From assembly GCA_024663395.1 (NCBI GenBank), contig JANFAH010000110.1, forward strand, positions 1 through 64,000: 64,000 nucleotides of DNA, written 5' to 3'. The translations under genes and the position numbers were made by a program. The notes beneath the pieces were generated by a model. That model was not told where the DNA came from. It did no database searches and was given only the letters and a program-made list of their open reading frames with translations. Shown piece after piece: positions 55,077-58,736 of the stretch. The stretch is from Pisolithus tinctorius (lineage: Eukaryota; Basidiomycota; Agaricomycetes; Boletales; Pisolithaceae). How positions within the stretch are numbered: the first letter of the stretch is position 1; the number at the start of each line of letters is the position of its first letter.

Positions 55077-58000
55077 TTAATTGGCCTTCAACAGCATGTT
55101 TGCTGAAAACACCTCAGAACAGTAACTCCATAAATAGTGAAAATGTCCACTTACACATGTGATGCTCAGTGGTGATCTTGACAATAGCATCACATAAACC
55201 ATCCATATCACCTTTATGGTCATGAAAAGCTGCCTTGACAGCATTTGAAATGGCAGCTTGTATTTTGGACCTGTTGTATTCCTCCACACTCAATGACAAA
55301 ACCTCCTGCCAAAGATGTTGCCCTTGCTGCATTAAAAAGTAAGAATGCTCAGCAACAAGCAAGCATCCTAGACCAGTGAGTATATCTTGTGTAGGCAATG
55401 GGAAACACTTACCAATGGCATGTTCAGCCATTGACTGGAGACTTGGGAACCTCCCCAACAAAGTGACATCTTTGGGCAGAGCTGGCATTTGGACAGCAGT
55501 ATTGACTTCAAATTTTGACTGGTACTCTGTATGTTTGCCTTAGACAAAAAGGGGTATTAGGCCAATGCTTACAAGCTAAGAGTTTTAATGGCACATGTGT
55601 GACAAATATGGTCAAAGTATACATGGATGAGAAATATAGCCAGTTTTGGCTGCTATAGGTTACACACCTCCTGCCATGGAAGAGGTCATACCAAGGGCAC
55701 CACCACACAACCATGATCAGTATATGCATGCAAAAAAGCATGGAACCACTCACATTCTGCCATAAAAGTGGTTTGGGAGTCCATAAAATGTAGCAAATAT
55801 CAGGGCAACTGAGTAGAAACACTTACAAGCTACAAGTCATGTGGAACCCAAAGTATGGATGTCAAGGGAATCAGGAAAGATCCAACATTGGATTAAATTC
55901 ACATACATTCTGCCATACCATCATGAACAGTGCAAGGGATTGCACTGAGCACATCCAGCTAAACATGCCATCAAATCACTCACCTCCTGTCATGCCACCA
56001 ACATGGAGAGTGCAAGTGAGGCCATTGAGCAGACATCCAGCCAGACATGCCATGAAATCACTCACATGCTGTGCTGCCACCAACATCAAGAGTGCAAGTG
56101 AGGCCATTGAGCAGACATCCAGCTAAACATGCCATCAAATCACTCACACGCTGTGATGCCACCAACATCAAGAGTGCAAGTGAGGCCATTGAGCAGACAT
56201 CCAGCTAAACATGCCATCAAATCACTCACAGGCTGTCATGCCACCAACATCAAGAGTGCAAGTGAGGCCATTGAGCAGACATCCAGCTAAACATGCCATC
56301 AAATCACTCACAAACTGTCATGCCACCAACATCAAGAGTGCAAGTGAGGCCATTGAGCAGACATCCAGCTAAACATGCCATCAAATCACTCACATGCTGT
56401 CATGCCACCAACATCAAGAGTGCAAGTGAGGCCATTGAGCAGACATCCAGCTAAACATGCCATCAAATCACTCACAGGCTGTCATGCCACCAACATCAAG
56501 AGTGCAAGTGAGGCCATTGAGCAGACATCCAGCTAAACATGCCATCAAATCACTCACATACTGCCATGCCACCAACATCAAGAGTGCAAGTGAGGCCATT
56601 GAGCAGACATCCAGCTAAACATGCCATCAAATCACTCACCTCCTGTCATGCCACCAACATCAAGAGTGCAAGTGAGGCCATTGAGCAGACATCCAGCTAA
56701 ACATGCCATCAAATCACTCACCCACTGTGATGCCACCAACATCAAGAGTGCAAGTGAGGCCATTGAGCAGACATCCAGCTAAACATGCCATCAAATCACT
56801 CACAAACTGTCATGCCACCAACATCAAGAGTGCAAGTGAGGCCATTGAGCAGACATCCAGCTAAACATGCCACCAAATCACTCACCCACTGTGATGCCAC
56901 CAACATCAAGAGTGCAAGTGAGACCATTGAGCAGACATCCAGCTAAACATGCCATCAAACCACTCACAAGCTGTCATGCCACCACATCAAAGTGCAAGTG
57001 AGGCCATTGAGCAGACATCCAGCTAAACATGCCATCACAATCACTTCATGTCCACTCGAATGGGGCCAAAAAAAAAAAATCCAAAATTACTGCCATGCCA
57101 CCACATCAAGGGCATGAATGACTCTAGTCAGCAAATCCAGCATGGCCATGCCATTAATTACTCACACCCTGTTAATACATGCAAGGGAACATAAAATGGG
57201 AGTGTCATTCACTCCATATGTTGAAAGAATTTTGACACTTACATCACAATTTGGAAACCATTTCAGCAAGTCACATTCCAATACTTTTGCATCCACCTGC
57301 AATCTTCCCTTGAAACCTAGCTCCATTCTGTTTCTCAATGTCCTTCAGAATATCAGTATCTGCACCAAAACACACTTCCTTACTTACTTGTGCACAGCAT
57401 ATTGAACACATAGTGCAATACTTGACTGCTGTGTTGATATAAGTAACCTTTGTAAACCTTCCTCATTCAACACATTTGCTGTGCACTGCATCAAAGCACT
57501 GCAATCTGCACTGTCTTGATGCATCTCTGCCACCAGAATTTTCTAGTAGCACCATTTCTGAGTGATGAAATACTCACTCTGAAGTGACACATATCCCTTA
57601 GGTGGAAACTTGCACTTGCCAAGCTCCTGTTTTATGTGGTCAAGCCACTTTTCCAACAGTTCTCCCTGCTTTTCTGCTGCCCTTTCCTTTGCCTCAGCTA
57701 TGGCAAAACCTTCATCCAGAAGCCCCCTAAGTGCAGGGAGGTACAAGCATCCACTTTGGTCAATAGCACTATCACAGGAACTATGCAGAAGTTTAGTCAC
57801 ATGCAATCCTATCTGTGGCAGTCTTTTTCTTACCATGACCTGTGTCACATTCATTGAAGAATTTCTGCTCAGCAGCTGTTACTGTCCTGTGGTAGTCTGT
57901 CATGGGGATGCAAAACCTACATTCATTTCTTCACTTAGCCTGTAGTTACTCGCAATGTATTCCTTACCAAATGGCATGGATTCGTTCATTCACCCTCATT

Positions 58001-58736
58001 GTGGCTCCACGTTCAGCCACAAAGCCCCGCATCTGGTCAAACTGCTGGACGGTACCTGCTTCGAACCCACAGGAGTCATGGAAGACAAAGCGCGGGTTAC
58101 TCTGAAACACGACCTCTTGCTCGATATTATGGTAGCCACGCTGAGAGCACTCAGCATTCATATGAATTTCCACGAGTCAACAGGACATCTTACTCCCAAA
58201 GTCCCTTGCACGACAACACCATCCATCTGAAATTGTTAGATAGGTTTCACCAACCTGATAGGACTATACCTTGTTTCCTTTCCCATCGAAGATCTCTGGC
58301 TTTTCTGTAGAGTTGCACACTCTTTGGAGGATGGTGGTTTTACCGGCATTTGCTCTGCCCATGACCAGAATTCGAAAGCGCTCTATGTTTTTCATGTATT
58401 CTTGAGCCATCTCAGAATTGAGACGGTAAGCAAGTCCAGAAGACGCAGTTCCTGCGACTCGGCATTAGACAATTTGGATTTCACGAAGAGCGACAATAAT
58501 ACCTTGTGGAGTAGCTTCAATCTGAGGGGGAACTGGATTCGCCACATCACCAATAAGACCGCTAGCTTCTGTGTTCCGATATTAAGCATGTCATGTTTCG
58601 TAGGCTAGAACAATATCACACCTGCAGCCGCAGCTTCAGTTGCAGCCGGAGCTATATGGCTTGGATCGCTCTGGCTAGCGCGATGCGAATCACTGCCGAG
58701 CGACTTGAGCCACTTCTTGATACGACCAGGAGCCAT
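55077..58736 (-). CDS. P-loop GTPase with codon-by-codon microexon array
   Basis: A G-domain protein of a family common in Agaricomycetes. Exons: 58736-58622, 58568-58503, 58451-58270 (P-loop GRANAGKTT), 58226-58194, 58140-57968 (G3 region FVFHDSCGFEAG), 57916-57834, 57780-57578 (G4 TKVD), 57526-57388, 57327-57243 (ends WFPNCD). The array of 3-nt exons (57168-55668) follows, then the last coding part to TAA at 55077. Introns are 43-74 nt with GT...AG and correct phase at each of these joins, which supports the model. The start is chosen because ATG 58736 opens a basic amphipathic N-terminus (MAPGRIKKWLKSLG) in frame. One base seems missing just after TKVD (near 57741-57746). This shifts the frame and would disable the protein unless it is a sequencing error or an unseen splice. 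The last segment after the array is best read as LPKDVTLLGRFPSLQ ... LLVAEHSYFL; a final 50-nt intron precedes the stop. GTP binding is well supported; cellular role unknown. Confidence 0.8.
55668..57168 (-). repeat. Array of 3-nt microexons separated by introns, 13 triplets at exact 82-bp spacing
   Basis: On the minus strand each unit is a 79-nt intron-like module GTGAGTGATTTGATGG ... GGTGGCATGACAG followed by three variable bases. Triplet positions are 55984 + 82n (n = 0-12). Minus-strand codons from upstream: GGT (57168), then CTT TGG TTT TGG GAG TAT CCT CAT TTT CCT CGT CAT GAG (56970 to 55984), then AAT (55909), CTT (55829), AAT (55756), GAG (55670). The last four are separated by introns of unrelated sequence (GTATGT...TAG, GTAAGT...CAG, GTGAGT...CAG, GTGTGT...AAG). 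Within the 13 units the 79-nt modules differ at only a few positions, while neighbouring triplets nearly always differ. Between GGT and CTT there is a 195-nt gap with two degenerate modules. The final triplet could instead be a 7-nt exon (GAGGTGT, donor GTAACC), which sets the phase for the last exon. Confidence 0.75.

Follow-up and report, generated by a model that had tools for sequence, protein, structure and literature searches.

Putative arrays of single-codon exons in GTPase genes of the fungus Pisolithus tinctorius

The GTPase gene of the window and its triplet array

The window, the whole 64,000-nucleotide stretch of contig JANFAH010000110.1 (C110) that was analysed, comes from the root-symbiotic fungus Pisolithus tinctorius and carries on its minus strand a GTPase gene whose GTPase and tail portions lie in ordinary exons, with introns of ~45-95 nt where the copy is intact (Table 1). 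Between these portions lies a run of triplets, each placed as an exon of a single codon. The initial annotation had described 13 such triplets at exact 82-bp spacing, each lying between CAG and GTGAGT, and all 13 were found on the minus strand in the order claimed. It had also placed the variation in the triplets themselves: across the 11 core units, triplets carry 1.39 bits per column, compared to 0.04 in the introns, where 6 of 79 columns vary. When all 13 units are taken, the last of which enters a diverged intron, 41 of 79 intron columns vary, at 0.23 bits versus 1.42 in the triplets. None of the 13 triplets is a stop codon, again as described. Tandem Repeats Finder assigned this array a period of 82, 13.4 copies and a score of 1936.

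The array had been described as 13 triplets following an exon that ends in WFPNCD, in phase 0. The exon end and the phase were borne out; the run is longer than 13, being preceded by GGT and followed by AAT, CTT, AAT, GAG and CTT (55909-55573). The five that follow are flanked by diverged introns, and the window contains 19 readable single-codon exons in all. The tail exon starts with TCA (55518), not directly with LPKDV. The residues N-L-N-E-L, with which the window array closes, also close the arrays of C115 (L042), C40:9k and L032.

Table 1. Exons and array features of the GTPase gene in the window
Feature	Position	Strand	Remark
Exon 1 (ATG)	58622..58736	-	matches P0017
Exon 2	58503..58568	-	
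Exon 3	58270..58451	-	P-loop GRANAGKT
Exon 4	58194..58226	-	
Exon 5	57968..58140	-	
Exon 6	57834..57916	-	
Exon 7	57578..57780	-	TKVD; one base fewer than C45, breaking the frame near 57747 (assembly error probable)
Exon 8	57388..57526	-	
Exon 9	57243..57342	-	WFPNCD at end, phase 0
Single-codon exon GGT (G)	57166..57168	-	opens array
Disturbed stretch with insertion	57042..57091	-	C45 has single-codon exon TAT (Y) here
13 single-codon exons, 55984+82n	55984..56970	-	CTT TGG TTT TGG GAG TAT CCT CAT TTT CCT CGT CAT GAG (LWFWEYPHFPRHE); introns 79 nt, near-identical
Single-codon exon AAT (N)	55907..55909	-	
Single-codon exon CTT (L)	55827..55829	-	
Single-codon exon AAT (N)	55754..55756	-	
Single-codon exon GAG (E)	55668..55670	-	
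Single-codon exon CTT (L)	55573..55575	-	closes array
Tail exon SKFEVNTAVQMPALPKDVTLLG...	55413..55518	-	homologous to transcript-like P0029 and models P0053, P0175
Second tail exon	55155..55367	-	helical C-terminal part; possibly not last exon

A near-identical copy of the gene, on contig C45, has 20 single-codon exons, the extra one being TAT between GGT and CTT. Over ~4.2 kb, C110 and C45 differ by 10 short indels and one insertion near 57042-57087, with 0 substitutions outside the insertion; one of the C110 indels breaks the reading frame in exon 7, and the insertion spoils the TAT exon. Because C45 and the deposited protein P0017 keep the frame, the indels, the break in the frame and the loss of the TAT exon are probably artefacts of assembly. 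C110 looks like a low-quality duplicate of C45. The C45 gene gives a 491-residue protein with no stop and the loop GYLWFWEYPHFPRHENLNEL, its last exon possibly missing.

The proteins belong to the TRAFAC GTPases (MMR_HSR1 type), with a P-loop GxxxxGKT, a TKxD motif and a Pfam match. MMR_HSR1 scores lie above the cut-off of 21.9 bits for P0029 (22.1) and P0077 (22.8) and below it for P0002 (18.3), whose Arf match of 22.7 bits exceeds the cut-off of 22.3. The GTPase motif residues are invariant or nearly so among 28 sequences. In a structural model of P0029 made with 28 sequences (mean pLDDT 71.9), the G domain and helices are ordered and the C-terminal helices well modelled. Residues 366-404, the counterpart of the array (an array being assumed for P0029 itself), fall below a pLDDT of 50 between well-modelled parts, which may only reflect poor alignment there. 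The likeness of the G domain to immunity-related GTPases (IRG) and to dynamin-like proteins, such as those of bacteria, extends to many other GTPases (the matches are ties in which mainly the G domain is aligned), and a sequence search of PDB structures returned nothing at E <0.7.

A joined sequence and the occurrence of arrays

P0003, a protein of 467 residues, is encoded by an assembled contig of 1,695 nt (source 'lgn', which we take to be the Logan assemblies of public reads) and reads across the gene with no introns. It runs from WFPNTK into DLPPYEQPQYQQQEGETREQWYERRYQEEQEQEQQHEQEYQEQQ, and the array on contig C109 matches 43 of these 44 residues in order; in 10,000 shuffles, the order match averaged 9.2 and reached at most 20. 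The sole mismatch falls at a codon for which C109 has CGA and the C4 copy of that gene has CAA; P0003 comes from the C109 gene or from one very closely related to it. Because the array introns and the ordinary introns are all absent, P0003 appears to be RNA-derived or a copy of RNA, in which case the C109 triplets are joined in mature RNA. One of the 44 joined exons has a GC donor. At position 4224 of L040, the donor after the single-codon exon CAA is of the GC type (gcaagt), yet P0003 retains the residue that this exon encodes.

P0003 is the only joined sequence that could be matched here to its genomic array. Array-like stretches are also present in P0029, P0077 and P0145. No close own-genome locus of P0029 or P0145 was found among the matches listed; since exon identity there reaches only 81% and 84%, respectively, both are taken to be from other species. 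No transcript of the window gene occurred among the best 120 of 416 matches listed, nor among 25 of 25 in a further search.

Each triplet counted is a very short exon with splice signals on both sides, AG before it and GT (rarely GC) after it; units were found by the pattern AG-NNN-GT/GC, and the near-100% frequency of AG and GT is therefore partly built in. A branch-point-like CTRAY occurs in 27 of 31 and 38 of 45 units in the arrays scored.

Arrays were present in all 30 of the best-matching GTPase loci of P0003, which represent 28 distinct places, are partly allele-like pairs, and are the highest-ranking of 191 matches rather than a random sample. A more distant GTPase subfamily had arrays in 3 of 3 loci, with periods of 78 or 80 (L045, L047, L048). 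In these three loci, as elsewhere, the exon remains 3 nt long while the length of the unit differs among subfamilies. As fetched, arrays contain 10-62 triplets, with periods of 82, 80 or 78. None of 8 loci chosen by a chance occurrence of the pattern had an array, and reversed sequence, used as a control, yielded 3 chains of ≥4 in 428,532 bases. Followed to their ends, arrays contain 20 (C45), 31 (C115), 49 (C1), 51 (C40) and 62 (C109) recognisable codons, the last with one 146-nt gap near its end.

The 79-nt intron of the window has at least 726 matches in the genome; those listed lie in tandem and adjoin a family GTPase match on 11 of the 12 contigs listed, the twelfth (C197) falling outside the comparison. 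Beyond this species, P0199 (Pisolithus sp. B1) reads apparent intron repeats in frame, and arrays therefore probably exist in other species. L036 (G000:C4:805390-808926), the C4 copy of the C100 gene, has its array interrupted from ~2918 by an unrelated, possibly transposon-like stretch, and a tail-exon match lies ~10 kb beyond the interruption.

Codons and splice marks within the arrays

Stop codons are absent from 521 triplets in 24 arrays, where 31.6 were expected from position-wise composition; triplets within an array are related, so the cells are not independent and the nominal probability is too small. This count omits near-identical second copies (the window, L014, L020, L024, L029, L033, L036, L037 and C4:2502k). 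Before counting, 15 pre-array matches in 8 loci were dropped, including four stops. Fourteen of the 15 sit upstream of the WFP codons; the remaining one falls in or at the intron donor that follows the WFP exon of L047. With these rows included, there are 4 stops among 536 triplets versus 33.1 expected.

CpG is nearly absent from array introns, with 10 occurrences in 31,915 nt (observed/expected 0.006; 21 arrays); the C45 and L009 genes have a ratio of 0.46 in their ordinary exons. This deficit suggests methylation and decay of the arrays. For the window, the ratio is 0.38, versus 0.006 in array introns. Triplets of the form CGN nonetheless make up 35 of 437, or 38 of 521 in the larger count. 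Codons ending in C, by comparison, number 0 of 521 (18% of 720 in ordinary exons, and 6% when G follows); a C at the end of a triplet would form a CpG with the G of the donor, and its loss is silent. That CpG should be erased where silent and kept where it specifies arginine would be hard to explain if the triplets were not coding. If splicing disfavoured C before the donor, that would account for part of the missing C-ending codons.

Signals that could mislead splicing are also scarce. CAG occurs 4 times in array triplets versus 33 for CAA (18 versus 13 in ordinary exons), as expected if acceptor-like triplets were harmful. In the last 40 nt of introns, AG occurs once in L009 versus 51 expected from shuffling, and 6 times in L040 versus 75 expected. 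Substitutions that create AG in this region number 1 of 160 in L009 and 6 of 172 in L040, compared to 16 of 111 possible ones. L009 has no missing unit among its 49 triplets, with gaps of 64-95 and introns of 78% average pairwise identity. Eighteen of the 24 arrays have no gap >105; the other six, L040 included, have one gap of 139-164, where a unit may lack the AG-NNN-GT/GC pattern.

In a copy of the C109 array on C4 (L043, G000:C4:2503900-2508900), three triplets are TGA, and at two of these sites the C109 array carries the arginine codon CGA. This copy looks decayed, and would illustrate the outcome without selection; relative to C109, it shows 5 changes in 180 triplet bases and 78 in 4,720 intron bases, three of the five being of CpG type.

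Competing explanations, proposed mechanism and precedent

We consider it very probable that the arrays consist of single-codon exons that are spliced in order and add one residue each to a paralogue-variable loop that links the core of a large GTPase to its helical C-terminal region. An ordinary minisatellite contained in a single long intron, with splice-like triplets that are decoys, either skipped or left unspliced, would account for the near-perfect 82-bp tandem structure and for models that jump over the array (P0002) or stop in it (P0001 and P0017), all of them predictions. It is at odds with the ordered joining of the triplets in P0003, which would already rule it out for C109 if P0003 derives from RNA, and offers no reason for the lack of stops, the CpG retained in CGN codons, the avoidance of AG or the focus of variation on the triplets of the window core. 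A non-coding repeat would be expected to vary equally along its whole unit and to lack a coding signature; neither is seen here, and we regard this explanation as highly improbable. Each array exon is a whole codon in phase 0, and any subset would remain in frame; alternative skipping of these frame-neutral 3-nt exons could thus generate many isoforms per gene. The matched joined sequence nevertheless includes 44 consecutive exons and no isoform was present among assembled contigs, from which rare ones would be lost, making such optional use of the exons unlikely.

The two remaining alternatives concern how the codons came to differ. The contrast in variability between triplets and introns of the window core could reflect active hypermutation of the triplets by a targeted diversification system, as could the divergence of the C45 and C115 genes: these paralogues are 4.3% apart from ATG to WFP, 1.4-5.2% apart in the introns flanking the core and 15.4% apart upstream of the ATG (mostly 1-5% in the gene and flanking introns), yet they combine an identical unit consensus with different codons, agreeing only at the array edges (the second residue Y and the final E-N-L-N-E-L). 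A targeted mutator should, however, be apparent between alleles, and the three allele-like pairs that are intact show a difference at 1 of 114 triplet bases, versus 47 of 2,724 array-intron bases. Triplets therefore change no faster than introns between such pairs, the sample being too small to reveal slower codon change (~2 expected, 1 seen). L035/L036 alone gives 1 of 30 triplet bases versus 3 of 698 intron bases; the pairs L014/L015, L019/L020 and L023/L024 (0 or 1 mismatch) and L037/L038 (indels only) are uninformative. Given these counts, targeted hypermutation was rejected as very unlikely, and the CpG-type changes in the decayed C4 copy also weigh against it. Growth by duplication of a codon-plus-intron cassette, followed by point mutation of the codons under strong diversifying selection, fits the repeated codon blocks of C115 (REAARREAAARR, ARHARH), the intron variant linked to its GAG units and a single duplicated block in L009. 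Some linkage of codon identity to intron similarity is seen on the upstream side in L042 (p 0.005) and C40 (p 0.020), and 2 of 14 linkage tests are below 0.05. The other 12 tests gave no significant coupling, and with so few intron substitutions there was little time for many codon changes unless the introns were separately homogenised. Duplication of units does occur, but as the sole process it was rejected on the uncoupled tests, and as the main source of the arrays it seems rather unlikely.

The initial annotation had proposed either that one intron, copied repeatedly, cut a coding sequence codon by codon, or that introns were homogenised while codons were kept. The second proposal accords with the 43 of 44 residues joined in order, the absence of stops, the CpG in arginine codons and the avoidance of AG, and our inference is that selection preserved the codons as the introns became homogenised. 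The first did not fare as well: array length varies among genes, and no uninterrupted paralogue was found, a search of the genome for an uninterrupted copy of the C109 array peptide having given no match (a weak result, as no candidate passed the first filter). Paralogues with unrelated residues at this point had been thought to count against the arrays. The residues do differ, strongly so between most paralogues, but this is no objection because those paralogues carry single-codon arrays of their own.

If the arrays are spliced as single-codon exons, their short introns would be recognised by intron definition, and homogenisation could proceed via gene conversion or unequal exchange, with occasional block duplication adding to it. 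An exchange tract contained within one intron would be harmless; one spanning a triplet would alter the protein and be filtered by selection. Identical 82-bp units would also let an array gain or lose whole residues with the frame intact. D, Y, E, W, G and R are abundant among the array residues; from this composition and the variability of these residues the most likely use of the loop would be as a recognition surface; it may form the binding face of an expanded, possibly immunity-like GTPase family. Going further, the arrays might be an evolved device for editing a recognition loop residue by residue, in which the 82-bp unit is a one-residue cassette, the shared intron supplies homology for exchange and is then spliced out, the frame is never broken whether residues are gained, lost or swapped, the whole immunity-like family uses the system and CpG decay turns arginine codons into those for Trp, Gln and His. 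We offer this as a tentative proposal that may well not hold.

Several known systems share features with these genes. Aphid bicycle genes contain longer, ordinary microexons, and their proteins are unrelated to the Pisolithus GTPases. They form a rapidly evolving family of effector genes for which microexons are named (PMC9168663). Schistosoma mansoni possesses 35 micro-exon genes (MEGs), with exons of 3-81 bp and introns of up to 5 kb (PMC10526429). Like MEGs, the Pisolithus genes combine many short exons with variable proteins; unlike MEGs, their array exons are 3 nt long, stand 10-62 in a row as fetched, are separated by introns that are mostly ~80 nt and alike in tandem, and make up a single stretch of a GTPase gene that also has ordinary exons. 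The window gene does not show short exons amid long introns. Isolated microexons of 1 or 3 nt in Arabidopsis APC11, Fusarium CYP621A and Drosophila homothorax (PMC4674806, PMC12940212, PMC7392893) indicate that exons of 1-3 nt can be spliced, in fungi included; these occur singly, and the abstracts say nothing of exons in tandem runs, of introns being homogenised or of a loop that varies. Fungal introner-like elements are introns that multiply (PMC4457414), a likeness to the at least 726 matches of the window intron; the Pisolithus matches listed differ in lying in tandem by family GTPases (11 of 12 contigs) and not over unrelated genes. A literature search for tandem arrays of single-codon exons or for Pisolithus microexons, with most subscription journals and bioRxiv outside its scope, returned none, and we found no published precedent for such arrays.

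If confirmed, a segment of up to ~60 residues would be spliced codon by codon, far beyond the published isolated exons of 1-3 nt, and the arrays would test the spliceosome on dozens of consecutive 3-nt exons. They would also provide a clean system for studying intron homogenisation, the introns and codons of one array evolving apart, and may allow a binding loop to change without frameshifts. Because the models examined end in the array, skip it or give the tail alone, databases may largely lack a variable portion of this large gene family. Several deposited models (P0175-P0199) present the tail as a separate short protein, and such tail-only models probably arise since annotation misses the array.
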